Below are positions 2 through 7,682 of a stretch of 37,711 bases of DNA, one piece after another. Numbering within the stretch: the first letter of the stretch is position 1; each line of letters starts with the position of its first letter. Location: contig JAVZPJ010000007.1 in NCBI GenBank assembly GCA_038881635.1, forward strand, positions 2,675-40,385. Direction: 5' to 3'. The notes under the pieces are model-generated. The model saw only the letters and a program-made list of their open reading frames with translations. It had not been told where the DNA came from and made no database searches. This stretch comes from Sulfolobales archaeon (GTDB lineage Archaea; Thermoproteota; Thermoprotei_A; Sulfolobales; AG1). The position numbers and the translations under genes were made by a program.

Positions 2-1396
2 ACTCCCACAACAACTACTCCTACAGTGATCCAGACTACTCCTACAACTACTCCAACTCCTACTCCCACAACTACAACCCCTGCCACAACTCCTACTACA
101 ACAGCTCCTCAGCTCATGATTCTTAATATCGATGGAACTCAGATTAGAGTTCCAAAGGATCTATATGATTTCGCCATGAACGCTCGCGAGGGTAAGATCT
201 CTGTCACAATAAACTTCTGGACCTCTATGTATCCATTCGAAGCAGATCTTATGAAGCAGGTTGTAGCAAACTTCACGAGAGAGTATCCTGGTATCAAGGT
301 TAATTATCAGAATATTCAGAATCTTAAAGAGACTGTAAAAGCAGGGATAGTAGCTGGAGATATCGAGAATACAGCTCATGTATTTACCTGGGCTCATGAC
401 TGGACTGGAGAATTCGCTGAGGCTGGATTTATAATACCTCTTGACAAGTATCTACCTCCTCAGACTCTAAGCGATATACAATCCCAGCTTCTACCACTAG
501 CTTTCGCGGCAGGACAGCTTGGCGTTCACGTGTACGGACTTCCATGGGCTGCTGAAGGTATTGCTCTGATCTGTGATGCTAATAAGGTTCCTCAGATTCC
601 TTCAACATTCTCAGATCTAGAGAGTATAATGAAGAACTATACAGATCCTTCAAAAGGATTATATGGCTTAGCATATCAGATAGATCCTTATCACATATAT
701 CCATTCATAACAGCATTCGGAGGATATTACTATGATGAAACCACTGATACCACAGCTTTCAATTCCTCAGGAACTCTTCAAGGTATAAGCTTTCTACTAA
801 CTCATGTATTCCCCTACATGTACACAGCTGATGTAGGTGGAGAAACTCAGCTAAAGCTATTCCTAGACGGTAAGACTCCATGCATTATAACAGGTCCTTG
901 GAGTATGAATAGCATTCTGGGAGTTTATAAGAATCTTAGCATAGGAGCTATCCCGAGTATTGATGGAAGAATTCCCAGACCTTTCGTAGGTATTAGAATG
1001 CTATGGATAACAAGTCTTGTTGAGAAGGATCCTAACAGACTCTATGCATCACTACTCTTCACATTATGGTTTACTATGAATGATAGAATGCTTAAGTTCT
1101 TAGTAGACTATGGAGGGTATATACCTGTTAAGAATAGTGTTATAAATTATATCACAGCTAATAGAGATAAGTATAATATTGTCTATGGATTTATAGAATC
1201 CATATCGAATGGTATTCCAATGCCTAAGGTTCCTAAGATGGGCTGTGTATGGGATCCCATCGGTACTGCTGTTAGTGCAATAGTTACAGAGTATAATGAG
1301 AAAGGTCTTAACGCGACGCTACAGGATCTGAAGGGAATACTAGATCAGGCTGCTTCAGCTCTTGTGAGTAAGTGCAATGTTAAACTAGCTGGATGA
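2..1396 (+). CDS. Sugar-type ABC transporter solute-binding protein (family 1), 5' end outside window
   Basis: Extracellular binding protein of a carbohydrate-type ABC importer (MalE-like, family 1). The reading frame is open from the left edge, so the start and signal peptide lie upstream; a GTG at 26 is only an internal Val codon. The visible protein begins in a Thr/Pro-rich linker (to about base 110), typical of archaeal membrane-tethered binding proteins. A two-lobe binding domain follows, opening with VTINFWTSMYPFEADLMKQV and with segments such as HVYGLPWAAEGIALI and CIITGPWSMNSI that are characteristic of family 1. Two MalFG-type permeases follow 24 bases downstream, so this is the substrate-recognition part of that importer. 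The substrate cannot be told; maltose or an oligosaccharide is only a guess. No ATPase gene is in the window next to it. Confidence 0.88.
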   Translation, partial: TPTTTTPTVIQTTPTTTPTPTPTTTTPATTPTTTAPQLMILNIDGTQIRVPKDLYDFAMNAREGKISVTINFWTSMYPFEADLMKQVVANFTREYPGIKVNYQNIQNLKETVKAGIVAGDIENTAHVFTWAHDWTGEFAEAGFIIPLDKYLPPQTLSDIQSQLLPLAFAAGQLGVHVYGLPWAAEGIALICDANKVPQIPSTFSDLESIMKNYTDPSKGLYGLAYQIDPYHIYPFITAFGGYYYDETTDTTAFNSSGTLQGISFLLTHVFPYMYTADVGGETQLKLFLDGKTPCIITGPWSMNSILGVYKNLSIGAIPSIDGRIPRPFVGIRMLWITSLVEKDPNRLYASLLFTLWFTMNDRMLKFLVDYGGYIPVKNSVINYITANRDKYNIVYGFIESISNGIPMPKVPKMGCVWDPIGTAVSAIVTEYNEKGLNATLQDLKGILDQAASALVSKCNVKLAG

Positions 1397-1420: not shown

Positions 1421-2875
1421 ATGGGTAGTGTTAGAAGAGTTTTGTATCCTCTCAGAGTAGCATTAGCTCTCACTATAGTGAGTGTGGTTCTATATCTTTT
1501 TTTCAATATATGGCCTATAGCATATTCTCTCTATATAGCTTTCACTGATGCTAATGCTAATAATATTGTTCCAAGTCCTAAGCTTCTAGAGCTTCTAAGT
1601 TTGAGAGCTAATGTGACAAGAGATCTTGAGACTAGGAGGGGCGAGATATCTTCTTATCTCGCTAGGATAGATTCTTCGATCTCTAGAGTGATCAGTACTA
1701 TAGAATCTTTTGAGAACTATATAAATCAGAATGCTAGCAAGATCTCTATCGCAGAGTTGAATAGCTATATAGATAATATGAGTTCTGAAATGCTTGAAGT
1801 AAATTCACTGGTAACAGCAGAAGGCTACTATCTCAACTACTATCCAGAGCTCAGAGGTAATATATCTAAAGCTAATGAGATCCTAGGATCCTTCAGAACA
1901 GAGATTTCATCAGTGCTCTTCTTCAAGATAAGCATCTCAGAAGAAGATCTCAACAGAATAAGGAATATATCATATAAATACCTCCCCCAAGTAGTAGACT
2001 ATCTAAACTCAGGTCTCATGACTCTGAGAACTATTGAAAGTGATTATGATCTCTTTGTAGAGAGAGTGGTAGGAGACATAGACAGACAGATCGATGCTCT
2101 AACACTTCACTTCGTAGGATTAGAGAATTTCAGAAGATTATTCACAGAAGCTTCATACCCCTACGCAGTGTATAAGACACTTTTATTCGTTGCAACCAGC
2201 GTGCCTCTCAAAGTCATAGTCGGTGTAGGGATCGCATTCTTATTCTCATCACCACTCATAGCAGGTAGGAGAATTATGAGAGCTCTTCTAGTACTCCCAT
2301 GGGCTCTTCCTCCTCTTCTCACTATAACAACCTGGAGAATGCTCTTCCTACCTGGGGTAGGTCCTTTCGCTCAATTCTTCTCAGCTTTTCTAGGGAGAAG
2401 CTTTAACATATATAATCTTGAGTGGGATGCATTCACAGTATATAATATTGTTGAGACATGGCTTGCATACCCATTTATAATGACCGTAGCCATGGGAGCT
2501 ATAGCAGGAGTTCCAAGAGAGATTATAGAAGCTACATATATCGATGGTGCTAGTATTCTCTATAGATTTAGAAGAGTGACCCTACCTCTAACTCTGAGAC
2601 CTATAGCATTTGCAGCTATAATGACCACAGGTGCTTCACTACAGGCCTTCCTAGTACCTCTTCTGATCAATGGAGGAGGTCCTGCTACAATGATAAGCTT
2701 CCCCGGAACCTCTCCCCAGCTCGGGTATTCAAATGATTTTATAATACTCTACGGCTATAGACAGGCTTACTTCTACAGAGATTACGGGCTTTCAGCTGCT
2801 TCATATCTTTTCGCAGTTCTAATACTCCTAGTATACGCTCTTCTATGGTACTACTTCCTGTATAGAAAGAGGTGA
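1421..2875 (+). CDS. ABC sugar transporter permease, MalF-type, with large helical extracellular insertion
   Basis: Inner permease of the sugar-type importer. The first membrane segment is at residues ~9-33, the last five span ~250-480, and the EAA loop that contacts the ATPase is at ~367-390 (EIIEATYIDGAS). The protein has 484 residues, while ordinary family members have about 290-310. The extra length is one insertion at ~47-229, between the first membrane helix (ending near FTDAN) and the usual FVGLENFRRLF. It is rich in Glu, Ser, Ile and Leu with heptad-like spacing and few prolines, so probably helical or coiled-coil and outside the cell. Its place matches the P2 loop of E. coli MalF, but it does not look like that domain. 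The ATG at 1421 follows an AAAGGG. The stop overlaps a GTG of the next gene, whose likely ATG is six bases on. Confidence 0.9.
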   Translation: MGSVRRVLYPLRVALALTIVSVVLYLFFNIWPIAYSLYIAFTDANANNIVPSPKLLELLSLRANVTRDLETRRGEISSYLARIDSSISRVISTIESFENYINQNASKISIAELNSYIDNMSSEMLEVNSLVTAEGYYLNYYPELRGNISKANEILGSFRTEISSVLFFKISISEEDLNRIRNISYKYLPQVVDYLNSGLMTLRTIESDYDLFVERVVGDIDRQIDALTLHFVGLENFRRLFTEASYPYAVYKTLLFVATSVPLKVIVGVGIAFLFSSPLIAGRRIMRALLVLPWALPPLLTITTWRMLFLPGVGPFAQFFSAFLGRSFNIYNLEWDAFTVYNIVETWLAYPFIMTVAMGAIAGVPREIIEATYIDGASILYRFRRVTLPLTLRPIAFAAIMTTGASLQAFLVPLLINGGGPATMISFPGTSPQLGYSNDFIILYGYRQAYFYRDYGLSAASYLFAVLILLVYALLWYYFLYRKR

Positions 2876-2880
2876 GAGTA

Positions 2881-3738
2881 ATGAGATCTTTTAAACTGAG
2901 TTATTATATAGGAGGTATAATTCTCACAGTACTAGCAATACTTGTTATAGCGATACTCATGTATCCTATAGCATATGTTGTCATAGCATCACTACTCAGA
3001 GGACAGGTTATACCAAGTAGCTTTGAAGATATTGAGAGGTATGGACTCTCTCTAGAGCATTATATCAATGCAATATCAGATCCTAATTTTATAGCAGCTA
3101 CTATTACAAGTATTATAGTAGCTCTTCTCAACATAATACTCTCGATCTTTGTCATAGTTCCTGCAGCCTATGCTTTCTCAAGATTCGAGTTCAGAGGTAA
3201 AGGTTATATTCTGGTTCTCTACCTTATACTAAGCCAGATAGGCGGAGGATTCGGTGTTGCAGCTGTGATAGCTTTATTCATATTCTTGGTTAAATTAAAC
3301 TCTCTAGGAATACCTCTCATAGGGAATCCATTCATACTACCTCTTATATACACATCATCAGCAGTACCTTTTCAGACATGGCTTATTAAAAACTACTTTG
3401 ATTCATTACCAAGATCTCTTGATGAAGCAGCCTTCATAGATGGAGCAAGCTGGAGAGATATAGTATTCAGAGTAATATTCCCAGCATCTAGAGGTGTGGT
3501 ATTCATAGTAGCTCTATTCGCGTTCATGGGAGCCTGGGGTGAGTTTCTTCTAGCCTCATTTATAAGAGTTAACACACTTGCAGCATATGTTTACCAGACC
3601 GCGGTCGGTCAGACAATATACTGGGCTGATTTCGCTGCTAGAACAGTTTTGTTTTCAATACCTATAGTCCTGATATATGTGATTGCTCAGAAGTACATAG
3701 GTGAGGCTATGAGATATGGTGCTGGTAAGATCTCTTAG
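2881..3738 (+). CDS. ABC sugar transporter permease, MalG-type
   Basis: Second permease of the sugar-type importer, 285 residues and six predicted membrane helices, which is the normal size. The EAA loop is seen as SLDEAAFIDGASWRDIVFRV in the second half. I chose ATG 2881 because GGTGA at 2871-2875 sits five bases before it; a GTG at 2872 would add three residues and overlap the upstream stop. It is the last gene of the operon: ftsY converges from the other strand with only 19 bases between the stops. There is no ATPase after it, so the importer must use an ATPase coded elsewhere or upstream of the window. Confidence 0.9.
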   Translation: MRSFKLSYYIGGIILTVLAILVIAILMYPIAYVVIASLLRGQVIPSSFEDIERYGLSLEHYINAISDPNFIAATITSIIVALLNIILSIFVIVPAAYAFSRFEFRGKGYILVLYLILSQIGGGFGVAAVIALFIFLVKLNSLGIPLIGNPFILPLIYTSSAVPFQTWLIKNYFDSLPRSLDEAAFIDGASWRDIVFRVIFPASRGVVFIVALFAFMGAWGEFLLASFIRVNTLAAYVYQTAVGQTIYWADFAARTVLFSIPIVLIYVIAQKYIGEAMRYGAGKIS

Positions 3739-3757
3739 CATATTACAAGATCCTAGA

Positions 3758-4690
3758 TCAGAGAATTCTACCTAAGATCTCTTCTGGAGAGTATTTAACG
3801 AGATCATCATACCCCTGTCCTACTCCTACGTAGAGTATTGGTTTATTAATAGATGCTATAATGCTAAGCGCAGATCCTCCTGAGGCTTCTGCATCTAGTT
3901 TTGTAAGTATGACAGCGTCAACACCTACATATTTATCAAATTCTCTAGCTTGATTAACCGCGTCATTCCCTGTTAATGCGTCAAGCACTAGAATTCTCAG
4001 ATCTGGTTTTGACACTCTCGATACTTTTAAAATCTCATTCATAAGATCTCTATCAGTATGCTGTCTACCAGCTGAGTCTATTAGAAGAACATCAAACCCC
4101 TGCTTCATAGAATATCTTATAGCATCATACACCAGAGCTGCTGGATCTGCTCCATATCTTCCTTTGAATATGGGTATCGAAAGTCTATTACAATGGACTT
4201 CAAGCTGTTCTTGAGCACCTGCTCTGAAAGTGTCTGCAGCAACCACCATTACTTTAAAACCTTTATCTCTAAGATACTTAGCAACCTTAGCTATCGTAGT
4301 TGTCTTTCCAACACCGTTAACACCCATAAAGAGTATCTTATAAGGTTTACTCCTGCTCTCTCTAATGATCTCTGGAAGATCTTTTTCTGAAACTCCTTTA
4401 CTAAGATACTGTTTTAAAACCTCTCTAAAGCTATCAACTATGTACTCTCTCTTACTCTCTAGAAAACCTATTCTAGAGCCTACTATCCTCTTCTCAAAAT
4501 CTCTTACAATGCTCTCTGCAACTTCTAGTGCTACGTCTGCTTCTACGAGTTCTAGAACTAGTTCTTCAGAGATCTTTTCGAGATCTTCTTCAGAGATCTC
4601 TTTCGAGATCTTATTCGAGATCTTCTCCTCAATAGCATTTGATATCTTATCAGCTACCCTATTGAAAAGCTCTTTAAGTCTTCTGAACAA
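3758..4690 (-). CDS. ftsY: Signal recognition particle receptor FtsY
   Basis: SRP receptor GTPase that docks SRP-bound ribosomes at the membrane and hydrolyses GTP together with SRP54. The NG domain is complete: N domain helices ~40-110, P-loop GVNGVGKT at 123-130, DTFRAGAQEQL at 153-163 (the insertion-box region special to SRP GTPases), DSAGR at 205-209 and TKLD at 263-266. At 310 residues it is a usual archaeal FtsY with a short charged N-terminal helix instead of the long bacterial A domain. The start is TTG at 4690, preceded by no ribosome-binding site but by a TATA box at 4711-4722 at leaderless distance. The N-terminal helix is coded by GAGATCTT-like repeats (4564-4627). Confidence 0.95.
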   Translation of the reverse strand: MFRRLKELFNRVADKISNAIEEKISNKISKEISEEDLEKISEELVLELVEADVALEVAESIVRDFEKRIVGSRIGFLESKREYIVDSFREVLKQYLSKGVSEKDLPEIIRESRSKPYKILFMGVNGVGKTTTIAKVAKYLRDKGFKVMVVAADTFRAGAQEQLEVHCNRLSIPIFKGRYGADPAALVYDAIRYSMKQGFDVLLIDSAGRQHTDRDLMNEILKVSRVSKPDLRILVLDALTGNDAVNQAREFDKYVGVDAVILTKLDAEASGGSALSIIASINKPILYVGVGQGYDDLVKYSPEEILGRIL

Positions 4691-4710
4691 TGTAATCTCA
4701 GTATATTAGT

Positions 4711-4722
4711 TATATTATAAGG
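4711..4722 (-). promoter_or_regulatory. TATA box of ftsY, leaderless spacing
   Basis: On the minus strand this reads CCTTATAATATA. Its centre is about 26 bases before the TTG start at 4690, so transcription should begin at or next to the start codon. This fits the lack of any Shine-Dalgarno sequence. Inferred from spacing only. Confidence 0.5.
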
Positions 4723-4755
4723 ATTTAAGATTGATGTAGAGACTCTAGAGAGGTT

Positions 4756-4770
4756 CCGGAAAAATATTTA
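4756..4770 (+). promoter_or_regulatory. BRE/TATA promoter of the Lhr-like helicase gene
   Basis: CCGGAAAAATATTTA combines a purine-rich BRE-like stretch with an archaeal TATA box. The expected transcription start is near 4792, giving a leader of about 17 bases before the GTG at 4809. Confidence 0.55.
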
Positions 4771-4808
4771 AGCATTCAAGCTTAAAACATGTCTCTGGAT
4801 GTTGTAGG

Positions 4809-7682
4809 GTGGAGTGTAAGATATATGAATGTTCTGGGAAGAATGAGAAATCCTATGAAGAGGATCTAAATAGAATTTTAGATCGTAGGATCCTAGATCT
4901 TATCAAGATAAAAGGTTGGAGCTCTCTCACACCAGTACAGATAGAAGCTTCGAGAAGTATTATTGAAGGGAGAAATACTCTCATAATATCTCCTACGGGT
5001 AGTGGTAAGACTGAAGCTGCTATGCTACCTATCTTCTCTATGATGCTCTCCGATAGTGATGTGAGAAATTCCTCAGGTGTCTACGTGCTCTATATAACAC
5101 CTATGAAAGCTCTTATAAATGATCTCTATAAGAGGATCAAGTGGTGGACTGATAGACTTGGTTTCATCGTAGGAAGAAAACATGGTGATGTCCCTACCGT
5201 CGAGAGGATTAGAAGACTTAAGAAGGTTCCTCATATTCTCATTATAACTCCTGAGAATCTTCAGGTAGATCTTGATTGGGGTATCAGATTTAGAGAGTTC
5301 TACGAGAAACTCAGATGGGTTGTGATAGATGAGATCCACGAGCTTATAGGGAGTAAGAGAGGTGTTCAGGTAGCTATTCTTCTTGAGAGACTTAGAAGAG
5401 TTGTAGGAAGAGATTTCCAGAGGATAATGCTCTCAGCAACTGTAGGAGATCCAGAGTATGTGATAAGATTCTTCACAGGATCCTCGGAGAGAGAGTGTAG
5501 CATAGTTCAATCTAGAGAGTTGAAGAAGATAAGAATACATATTAGCAGGGTTGTGTCGAGCGGCGAGAACTCTCTAGATAGCATTGCTAGAACTATTAAA
5601 AATCTGTACAAGCCTGTGACACTGGTGTTTGTAAATAGCAGGTACATGGCTGAGAGACTTCATGAAGCTCTTGAGAGAGCAGGTATCGATAGAGTTTTCG
5701 TGCATCATTCTTCGATATCTAGCAAGGTTAAGGAAGATGTTGAGGATCTTGTTAAAAATGGTGAGGCTAACATAGTAGTCTCTACCAGAACACTGGAGCT
5801 GGGAGTGGATCTGGGGTTTATTGAGAGAGTGATTTTATTCAGATCTCCTGGTCAGGTATCTTCTCTGATTCAGAGAATAGGAAGATCTGGGCATTCTCTC
5901 GATAGAATTTCCGAGGGTGTTATACTTGTTGATAGAGATATAGATCTTCTAGAGATACTCTCTCTAGTAAGACTTATGAGCAGAGGTTATGTTGAGAAGC
6001 CTAGGAGATTTAGAAAGCCTAAGGATCTAATTGCCAGAACTATTCTTGGCATGTCTCTGAGAAGTCTTGTAAGTGCTGAGGAGATCTATAGCACTCTAAA
6101 GTCTACATATGTATTCAGAGATCTATCTTATGAAGATTTTATGAGAGTAGTAGACTATCTGGCTGAGAATAAACTGATTGAGAGGTTCCCGGATGATAGT
6201 ATAAGAGTTAAGAGGAATTTCTTTAATATATGGAGTTTTAACAAGAATAAGAATTGTATTAAAAGCTTCTCAGAATTCTTCTCCTACATAAATGATAACG
6301 ATATGTATATTGTCAGAGCTGATAAAGAGGTTATAGGAGCTCTCGATGAATTCTATGTTTATAGGATTCTTAGAGCTGGCGATGTTATAAGACTTTCTGG
6401 GAGACTTTGGAAGGTTCTGAAAATAGATGATTATAATAAGATTGTCGAGGTATCGGCTACGGAGAGTGGTGAGGGCTTTATACCTCTCTGGAATGGAGAT
6501 ACTGCTTCTAGAAGTATTTCTACAGCCAGATCATTCTACGAGATCCTTGGAGAAGGTTCAGAGGATCTTAAAGCTCTAAAAGATCTCATGGATGCTGAAT
6601 CGCTAGAGTTATCTCTTGAATCCGTGAGATCTTTTAGAAGATGGTTTGTAAACAATAAGATCCCTATTCCTAGAGAAGATCTGATCGTAGTAGAAGATCT
6701 AGGAGTTGAGAAGATCGTTTTATACCCCTTCGGAGATAAATTAGCCGAGATATTAGGATATGTAGTACTCAATGAAGCTTTTAAGAGAGCTGGTAGAGAT
6801 GTTGAGATCAGGATCACAGGATATGGATTCTCGCTAAGAGCTGAAGGATTAGATCCTATAGAACTTATAATGGATATCTGTAGGAGTGGCAGGATTTCCG
6901 AGAGTATCAGAAGTGCTCTTATGAGAAGTCCTAGACTCAGGAGTAAGGTGAGAGAGATACAATATAGTTTCGGAAAGATTAGTGGTGCTGAAGATGATAG
7001 TTTTATAGTTGATGAGGCTTTGAATCAGATCCTCTCAGATTTTGAGGATGAGATCAGCTTGAGCGAGTTTATAGAGAATCTATGCAAGGAGAGAATCAAG
7101 GTATTCAGAGTCAGATCTAGAGAACCTTCTCCTATATCTAGAAGGATTCTCGAGATACCTCCAACAAGGATCTGGCTTAAGGATCTTAGTTACACGATAA
7201 GCAAAGCTATGAAAGGAATGGCTTTAACAGTTAGCGAGATTTCAGAGATAACAGAGCTACCAGAAGATCTCGTGGAGAGCAAGCTTAAAGATATGAGAAA
7301 AGACTCTGATACAGCCGTGATCTACTTTAGAGATGTAGCTTCCAATGATATTAGATGGGTTCTCGTAGAGGATCTAGAGGAGATATCTAGAGATCCTCTA
7401 TTCGAGGAAAGTTTCAAACCTTTAGACCCTGATGAGCTCTTTGAGATAACCTATAAAGAGTATCATCAGAATCCATCGAATACTCTAATTCTAAGAGCTG
7501 GAGATATCGAGAGTAATGGAGGATTGCTAGAGAGATACATAAGATCTGATGAAGTGTACGAGGTGAGAGTAAGACCTGCTCATGGTAATGGAGGTGTCAG
7601 CTTTTATAATGTTAAGAAGAAAGCATTGAAATACGTGGTTTTAAACGCTATATCATTCCTCCAGAGATCTAGCGAGATCTAG
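4809..7682 (+). CDS. Lhr-like DEAD/DEAH-box helicase
   Basis: Large superfamily 2 helicase of the Lhr group, likely acting in DNA repair or replication-fork processing. Motifs in order: Q-motif-like TPVQIEA (41-47), Walker A SPTGSGKT (61-68), TPMKAL, DEIH (174-177), SAT (209-211), STRTLELGVDLG (~325-336) and QRIGRSGH (355-362). A winged-helix and Lhr-core C-terminal region follows. At 957 residues it is as long as archaeal Lhr-core proteins. GTG 4809 is the first start in this frame after the promoter at 4756-4770; an ATG at 4789 is in another frame. Its last 14 bases overlap the convergent PHP gene. Archaea have several Lhr paralogues and I cannot say which type this is. Confidence 0.93.
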   Translation: MECKIYECSGKNEKSYEEDLNRILDRRILDLIKIKGWSSLTPVQIEASRSIIEGRNTLIISPTGSGKTEAAMLPIFSMMLSDSDVRNSSGVYVLYITPMKALINDLYKRIKWWTDRLGFIVGRKHGDVPTVERIRRLKKVPHILIITPENLQVDLDWGIRFREFYEKLRWVVIDEIHELIGSKRGVQVAILLERLRRVVGRDFQRIMLSATVGDPEYVIRFFTGSSERECSIVQSRELKKIRIHISRVVSSGENSLDSIARTIKNLYKPVTLVFVNSRYMAERLHEALERAGIDRVFVHHSSISSKVKEDVEDLVKNGEANIVVSTRTLELGVDLGFIERVILFRSPGQVSSLIQRIGRSGHSLDRISEGVILVDRDIDLLEILSLVRLMSRGYVEKPRRFRKPKDLIARTILGMSLRSLVSAEEIYSTLKSTYVFRDLSYEDFMRVVDYLAENKLIERFPDDSIRVKRNFFNIWSFNKNKNCIKSFSEFFSYINDNDMYIVRADKEVIGALDEFYVYRILRAGDVIRLSGRLWKVLKIDDYNKIVEVSATESGEGFIPLWNGDTASRSISTARSFYEILGEGSEDLKALKDLMDAESLELSLESVRSFRRWFVNNKIPIPREDLIVVEDLGVEKIVLYPFGDKLAEILGYVVLNEAFKRAGRDVEIRITGYGFSLRAEGLDPIELIMDICRSGRISESIRSALMRSPRLRSKVREIQYSFGKISGAEDDSFIVDEALNQILSDFEDEISLSEFIENLCKERIKVFRVRSREPSPISRRILEIPPTRIWLKDLSYTISKAMKGMALTVSEISEITELPEDLVESKLKDMRKDSDTAVIYFRDVASNDIRWVLVEDLEEISRDPLFEESFKPLDPDELFEITYKEYHQNPSNTLILRAGDIESNGGLLERYIRSDEVYEVRVRPAHGNGGVSFYNVKKKALKYVVLNAISFLQRSSEI

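Follow-up and report, generated by a model that had tools for sequence, protein, structure and literature searches.

A predicted helical bundle at the position of P2 in an archaeal MalF-type permease, a candidate docking arm for the solute-binding protein

What does an archaeal sugar permease carry in the loop where E. coli MalF has its P2 domain, and what could that extra domain do? P2 is a periplasmic domain of 180 residues that E. coli MalF carries between TM3 and TM4. It is part of the best-studied ABC importer, and yet many MalF relatives are without it (Noll et al. 2008, PMC2246101). A sequence-only reading of the window, by which we mean the whole 37,711-nucleotide stretch analysed here (Sulfolobales archaeon, contig JAVZPJ010000007.1), had proposed that a MalF-type permease encoded near its start holds about 180 extra residues at this place, and that these residues are helical and could reach a tethered binding protein or the S-layer.

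The operon and the position of the insertion

The window begins with three genes, all on the + strand, in the order solute-binding protein (SBP), MalF-type permease and MalG-type permease. The SBP gene (SBP_bac_1, Pfam E 2.3e-25) lies at 2..1396 (+) and is cut by the window start. The whole gene (L109 2427-4070, 547 aa) encodes an N-terminal hydrophobic segment and then, on the N-terminal side of the SBP, a Thr/Pro-rich linker that is partly masked as X in the genome sequence, in agreement with the proposed tethering of the binding protein. The MalF-type permease (1421..2875, +, 484 aa) and the MalG-type permease (2872..3738, +, 288 aa) both match BPD_transp_1 (E 3.2e-11 and 2.4e-12, respectively), and the alignment of MalG proteins places no insertion in the latter. 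Upstream of the SBP gene, on the opposite strand, Pfam identifies a GH13 alpha-amylase-type gene (L109 238-2340). MalK-like frames are found on other contigs of the window genome, away from the SBP/MalF/MalG operon; the best one (G000:C5:3463-4569) is 65% identical to the MalK of L111, which lies beside a related operon, and the next one, on G000:C12, is 59% identical. Judged by this sequence likeness, either frame may be the partner of the window operon. The GH13 neighbour and the likeness of the MalK frames together imply that the substrate of the system is probably maltodextrin.

We examined the permease with sequence profiles and with structural alignment. Pfam finds BPD_transp_1 (PF00528) at residues 268-481 only, at 43.7 bits against a curated cut-off of 26.4, and in phmmer the match to E. 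coli MalF covers residues 232-474, with an extra stretch at residues 28-58 that scores -2.8 bits. The MalF equivalog NF008232 of NCBIfam, which matches at residues 231-474, is not reached (105.2 bits vs a cut-off of 392). When the predicted structure was compared by VIA-align, residues 8..475 of the model paired with residues 58..504 of E. coli MalF (2r6g_F; Z 22.8, 312 aligned), and comparison of the whole core gave Z 27.6 over 277 residues for SugA (7cad_A) and Z 26.2 over 308 for MalF (9bcr_H), so that MalF and SugA are the closest solved structures both by sequence and by fold. The assignment as a MalF-type permease is therefore sound. Because VIA-align pairs the two chains in this way, the insertion (1559..2107, +; residues 47-229, 183 residues, delimited by AlphaFold2 and by the alignment of 22 members) is in the TM1-TM2 loop of a six-helix core, which corresponds to the TM3-TM4 loop of E. 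coli MalF, a protein with eight membrane helices (PMC2246101). Thus, phmmer, VIA-align and the 22-member alignment all bear out the proposed insertion at the position of P2.

The setting is the same in both systems, since MalFGK2-MalE is likewise an SBP-dependent importer with a MalG partner, and its extra domain, of about 180 residues, occupies the corresponding loop. SugA of the mycobacterial LpqY-SugABC system, the best structural match to the whole core, has no room for such an insertion, as its solved chain (277 residues) aligns over its full length. For the insertion itself, Pfam and NCBIfam give no domain above cut-off, just scattered weak matches.

A predicted four-helix bundle and its likenesses

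AlphaFold2 was run on the whole permease (alignment of 35 sequences, 5 of which hold the insertion) and on the insertion alone (4 sequences). The first model has a mean pLDDT of 92.9 and a pTM of 0.75, with blocks of pLDDT 90-98 in the insertion, and the second a pLDDT of 88.3 and a pTM of 0.80, although with so few sequences the confidence values of helical models can run too high. In the whole-permease model the insertion consists of helices at residues 53-71, 73-103, 110-131, 142-166, 174-207 and 209-227, and contains no strands; modelled alone, it forms four continuous helices. Helix 1 (1577..1729, +; residues 53-103) has a slight break at residue 72 in the whole model and is continuous in the insertion-only model. 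Helix 2 (1748..1813, +; residues 110-131) and helix 3 (1844..1918, +; residues 142-166) appear in both models and are joined by a loop (1814..1843, +; residues 132-141). Helix 4 (1940..2101, +; residues 174-227), with a slight break at residue 208, leads back to the permease core. At 51 and 54 residues, helices 1 and 4 have roughly double the length of helices 2 and 3 (22 and 25 residues), and we therefore infer that the far half is an up-down antiparallel four-helix bundle standing on a two-helix stalk; the geometry of the stalk would follow from these helix lengths and from the similarity to NarQ described below. Hydrophobicity has helical periodicity in both sub-lineages of the family (peaks at 100 and 105 degrees; 0/300 shuffles as strong), and at 1.5 Å per residue the longest helices measure about 75-80 Å. 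From these models the insertion most likely folds by itself. Topology, the glycosylation sequons and the cysteine pair (see below) place it, we infer, on the extracellular side.

The helical character that had been read from the sequence is thus recovered in both models, and prediction of the permease, which had been proposed as a check, gives a confidently helical four-helix bundle. The suggestion of a helical hairpin or coiled coil holds as far as the helices go; a simple hairpin or coiled coil gives way to the predicted bundle with its two-helix base. Disorder of the insertion is ruled out by the pLDDT blocks of 90-98 in the whole model.

P2 is a domain with beta-strands. The insertion is all-helical in prediction and has no sequence match to the P2 of E. 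coli MalF, so that a known P2 fold is unsupported by sequence or by predicted secondary structure. A profile of ten inserts searched against the PDB did not find MalF at E 1, and MalF was absent among the Foldseek and VIA-align matches listed for the insertion, which by itself proves nothing. What appears to be new is an outrigger at the place of P2 whose predicted fold seems to differ. The titles and abstract beginnings listed from the open-licence literature on MalF and archaeal sugar permeases mention no helical domain of this kind on a MalF from archaea.

Which known folds does the predicted bundle resemble? Foldseek against the PDB returned no match to the insertion at E 0.001 or better. 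Among the matches listed, the best TM-score belongs to the NarQ sensor (5jeq; TMq 0.70, rmsd 2.9 over 180 columns, E 0.1), in a fragment that includes the NarQ membrane helices, and VIA-align gives NarQ a Z of 13.5 (rmsd 4.3, 167 aligned). Other four-helix bundles (FAT domains, vinculin, designed proteins) reach Z 12.4-14.3 among the VIA-align matches listed, and VIA-align itself rates Z values near 13 as common for helical models, four-helix bundles matching many unrelated proteins. The fold matches listed also contain the XylFII-LytSN complex 5xsj (VIA-align Z 12.5, 116 aligned) and the chemoreceptor ligand domains of Vc1313, PcaY_PP, Tar and MCP2201. The predicted insertion has the layout of the 4HB/TarH/NarQ type, a four-helix up-down bundle that continues into two membrane helices; NarQ, Tar, LytS and PcaY_PP all have a four-helix bundle, that of NarQ lying between two membrane helices. 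However, no sequence relation between these sensors and the insertion was found, and here the bundle sits on a transporter: the remainder of the protein is an ABC permease, without a signalling domain. No Pfam sensor family was detected at E 0.1 in the inserts scanned (10/10 of sub-lineage A, 8/12 of sub-lineage B), and the insert profile gave weak stretches to a methyl-accepting chemotaxis protein in the PDB (E 0.33-0.35). Hence, the predicted architecture resembles that of sensor bundles, without evidence of common descent.

Distribution, divergence and genomic setting

We then looked for the insertion in other genomes. Among 59 genomes, the window's own included, 41 have some permease match and nine the insert-bearing form. 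A scan of named genomes found four insert-bearing loci out of 78, two of which share their contigs with two of the nine; of the other 74 loci, 73 yielded reading frames for this check and have no such insert, 60 of which have at most 75 residues before the core, and in the nine insert-free frames with more than 100 residues there, TM1 lies directly ahead of the core. A search of 398 genomes of the phylum matched 37 at E 1e-30, of which 17 have the full-length form. Altogether, this gives 22 distinct insert-bearing permeases (nine, two from the named-genome scan and 11 from the 398-genome search). Since they come from different genomes, an artefact of one assembly is ruled out. The insertion-only search that had been suggested recovers the domain in the same 17 of the 398 genomes as the full-length search (six by the sub-lineage A profile and 11 by the B profile), each profile missing the other sub-lineage at E 1e-4; two further weak matches near E 1e-4 fall in frames that resemble coiled-coil proteins rather than permeases. 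Within the window's order the inserts are spread over several families; they are also present in four genomes, all of a single genus, from another family of the phylum (f35). The named hosts are Desulfurococcales or Desulfurococcaceae assemblies and a Staphylothermus.

The insertion is inherited and nearly constant in length: in an alignment of 46 permeases, 22 have 180-189 residues at the insertion site and 24 have 4-21, with no intermediates. In a maximum-likelihood tree of 42 proteins, from which the insert columns were left out, the 22 insert-bearing permeases form one clade (98/97; 91/94 for 11 insert-bearing rows in an earlier tree of 25 rows), which divides into sub-lineage A (10 members including the window, 100/99) and sub-lineage B (12 members, 100/99). 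The closest insert-free relatives (L011, L012 and L013) belong to the window's order. As the insert-bearing proteins are one clade in a tree built without the insert, the simplest explanation is a single gain of the insertion, in an ancestor of these archaeal MalF-type permeases. The four f35 loci (L159-L162, in G190, G218, G201 and G121) have an A-type insert-bearing operon with an upstream gene that resembles the amylase neighbour of the window. Their proteins nest inside sub-lineage A, which suggests that these operons may have been transferred between lineages. At another locus (L166 4305-5544, G406), a frame resembling the N-terminal part of GalT abuts a MalF truncated to its core, and the SBP, TM1 and the insert are absent ahead of it; this state reflects a genuine deletion or else a chimeric assembly.

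The insert is less conserved than its surroundings. Within sub-lineage A (8/10 members), mean identity is 68% for the core, 67% for MalG, 62% for the SBP and 34% for the insert, and within B (11/12 members) it is 68%, 57%, 57% and 29%, respectively. Between A and B the inserts are 8-15% identical (11 sequences compared) and the cores 56% on average. Comparison of the A and B insert profiles scores 40.8, vs at most 20.5 in 60 column-shuffled controls, and drops to 20.2, inside the range of the controls, without the last 40 columns. Therefore, the comparison supports homology for the C-terminal part, and for the remainder common origin would rest on position, length and helicity. In sub-lineage A (8/10 members), mean pairwise identity is highest at the membrane-near ends (0.42-0.59) and in the loops between helices 2 and 3 (0.52) and 3 and 4 (0.44), lower in the first loop (0.33) and lowest in the bundle helices (0.26-0.29). 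An S-N-x-T motif is common in the loop between helices 2 and 3 and is absent from the window's own sequence.

Exactly two cysteines, at positions 19 and 95-97, are found in 12/12 B inserts, and the A inserts have none (8/10) or one (2/10). Placed on the bundle predicted for A, through a stretch of the alignment that lacks significance on its own, the B cysteines would be neighbours, one in helix 1 and one near the loop between helices 2 and 3. N-x-S/T sequons are in excess in both sub-lineages (A inserts, 32 vs 16.5 +- 3.8 in shuffled sequences, 1/500 as high; B inserts, 58 vs 24.9 +- 4.5, 0/500 as high), and the cores contain 0 (A) and 3 (B); as related sequences are not independent, this excess is supportive only. 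The cysteine pair and the sequon excess would both fit an extracellular domain. Once the core has been corrected for, insert identity still follows SBP identity, with a partial r of 0.52 (p 0.008) in A and of 0.45 (p 0.001) in B. This co-divergence is positive but not specific to the SBP, since the corresponding correlation with MalG is higher in B (0.68; in A it is 0.37, p 0.07).

The neighbouring genes of six insert-bearing operons, picked by hand as glycosidase-like, were scanned with Pfam. The A operons (window genome, L111) adjoin a GH13 gene. GH57 carrying a C-terminal glucodextranase module is the neighbour of two B members, L113 and L115, and also of L119, which has no insert; in B, L117 lies next to GH53 and L116 next to GH35. 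The insert thus appears to be retained while the likely substrate shifts from alpha-glucans to galactans, and its persistence beside four glycosidase families argues against a role in substrate recognition. At L158, a B operon, no glycosidase was recognised among the listed neighbouring ORFs of at least 150 aa. Two more B loci, L034 and L166, also seem to lie beside GH53 or GH35, by likeness of sequence. At L155 (6506-8041, G226), the SBP gene of a B operon is in two pieces (187 and 306 aa), from a disruption or a sequencing error.

A proposed docking arm and its alternatives

How could such a domain serve the transporter? We propose, giving this reading about an even chance, that the insertion is a docking arm for the membrane-tethered SBP and does the job of P2. 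The SBP would be fixed to the membrane by its N-terminal segment and long Thr/Pro linker, and sugar delivery would require it to settle on MalF and MalG. The bundle would rise beside the entrance on two helices, one extending the outer end of TM1 and the other returning to the core, and, as a rigid body of about 75 Å, it could flank the docked SBP and hold or orient it, as is reported for P2 and MalE. With the SBP already tethered to the membrane, the bundle would serve as a lateral guide to keep it above the translocation pathway, perhaps with the conserved loop that joins helices 2 and 3 touching it. P2, according to work attributed to Daus et al. in 2009, reportedly interacts with MalE throughout the cycle. 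We favour the docking arm partly because some four-helix sensor domains bind SBPs. The four-helix sensor LytS docks an SBP, a role that by analogy may be shared by the insertion; XylFII docks on LytS at its helices H3 and H4, as described in PMC9769921, and a model of a complex between MBP and a chemoreceptor is among the works cited in PMC9600550.

A docking arm would explain a domain that equals P2 in position and size, is confidently modelled as helical, keeps a length of 180-189 residues in 22/22 members of a single clade, persists beside different glycosidase families and tracks the SBP in identity. Moreover, two insert-free relatives carry an insertion in the MalG loop, as if the same need were met there. 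Against it, the co-divergence is not SBP-specific, and the poorly conserved body of the bundle is unlike a fixed interface. This low conservation, combined with a nearly constant length and with conserved ends that adjoin the core, would be expected instead if the bundle were an element of assembly or stability, which stiffens the TM1-TM2 connection or the packing of MalF and MalG in a hyperthermophile and has no particular partner. The correlation of insert divergence with MalG in B and the invariant B cysteine pair, possibly a stabilising disulfide, point the same way; however, close relatives in the same order manage without the insert, and the loop between helices 2 and 3 is conserved too although it is far from the core in sequence, and we regard this explanation as unlikely. 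The insert-free relatives also weigh on the docking arm itself: the SBPs of L011 and L013 have 140 and 95 residues before their domain, within the range of the insert-bearing systems (79-147), and the operon of L011 (L119) has a GH57 neighbour as well. Insert-free sisters with similar tethers and a GH57 setting imply that transport of this kind can proceed without the insert.

The likeness to sensor bundles comes with no Foldseek match at E 0.001 and with a fold that many unrelated proteins share, which counts against reading it as a sign of docking. It could also indicate a sensor, in which the bundle binds a small ligand as Tar or NarQ does and modulates transport, and the presence of NarQ, with the best TM-score listed, and of chemoreceptor ligand domains among the fold matches listed would agree with this; the lack of a Pfam sensor family at the threshold used, the poorly conserved bundle helices and the missing signalling domain make a sensor the most improbable of the explanations weighed here. 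Scarcely better placed, and also quite improbable, is contact with another component of the envelope, such as secreted or membrane-anchored neighbour glycosidases, a glycan layer or the S-layer. Glycosidase genes do adjoin the six operons picked for the Pfam scan, and the sequon-rich insert may be glycosylated, but the glycosidase families differ among insert-bearing operons and none was recognised around L158. The canopies of crenarchaeal S-layers lie tens of nanometres above the membrane, and helices of 75-80 Å are too short for this height, so the earlier suggestion that the insertion reaches the S-layer finds no support.

The same place and length as P2 and an apparently different fold make P2 the natural comparison for the archaeal insertion. 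If both domains hold the SBP, an outrigger in the TM1-TM2 loop would be a general solution in type I importers. More tentatively, and with the balance somewhat against it, a chemoreceptor-like four-helix module, captured or arisen de novo, might be a second and non-homologous way of doing what P2 does, and the SBP outrigger a convergent design rule by which docking domains were gained repeatedly in the TM1-TM2 loop of MalF or MalG. The cases under such a rule, offered as tentatively, would be P2 in enteric bacteria and Thermotogales, the enlarged MalG of Thermotogales, the MalG insertions of a Thermococcus and a relative, and the bundle on MalF. The close insert-free relatives are built-in controls, and thermostable proteins make the docking idea testable.

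MalG proteins provide the comparison with the partner subunit. In the insert-bearing systems MalG has an ordinary length in five aligned examples, and over the 22 systems it measures 258-317 aa in 20 and 427 aa in two, where the frame starts inside MalF. L011, L013 and L145 have neither a MalF-type nor a MalG-type insertion. In Thermotogales, the TM1-TM2 loop of MalG is enlarged by about 500 residues, for which PMC2246101 reports no similarity to known proteins; this is the matching extracytoplasmic loop of a maltose permease subunit, but the insertion is on MalG and much larger. Two systems without the MalF insertion have extra MalG residues in the matching TM1-TM2 loop, about 131 in L035 (Thermococcus; MalG at 4885-6120) and about 159 in L163 (f35; MalG at 3649-4983, -). 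Together with the Thermotogales MalG, they make it seem that extra domains in this loop arose more than once. Neither the L035 nor the L163 insertion has helical periodicity or a Pfam domain; strand-like periodicity is clear in L035 (0/200 shuffles as strong) and weak in L163 (16/200).
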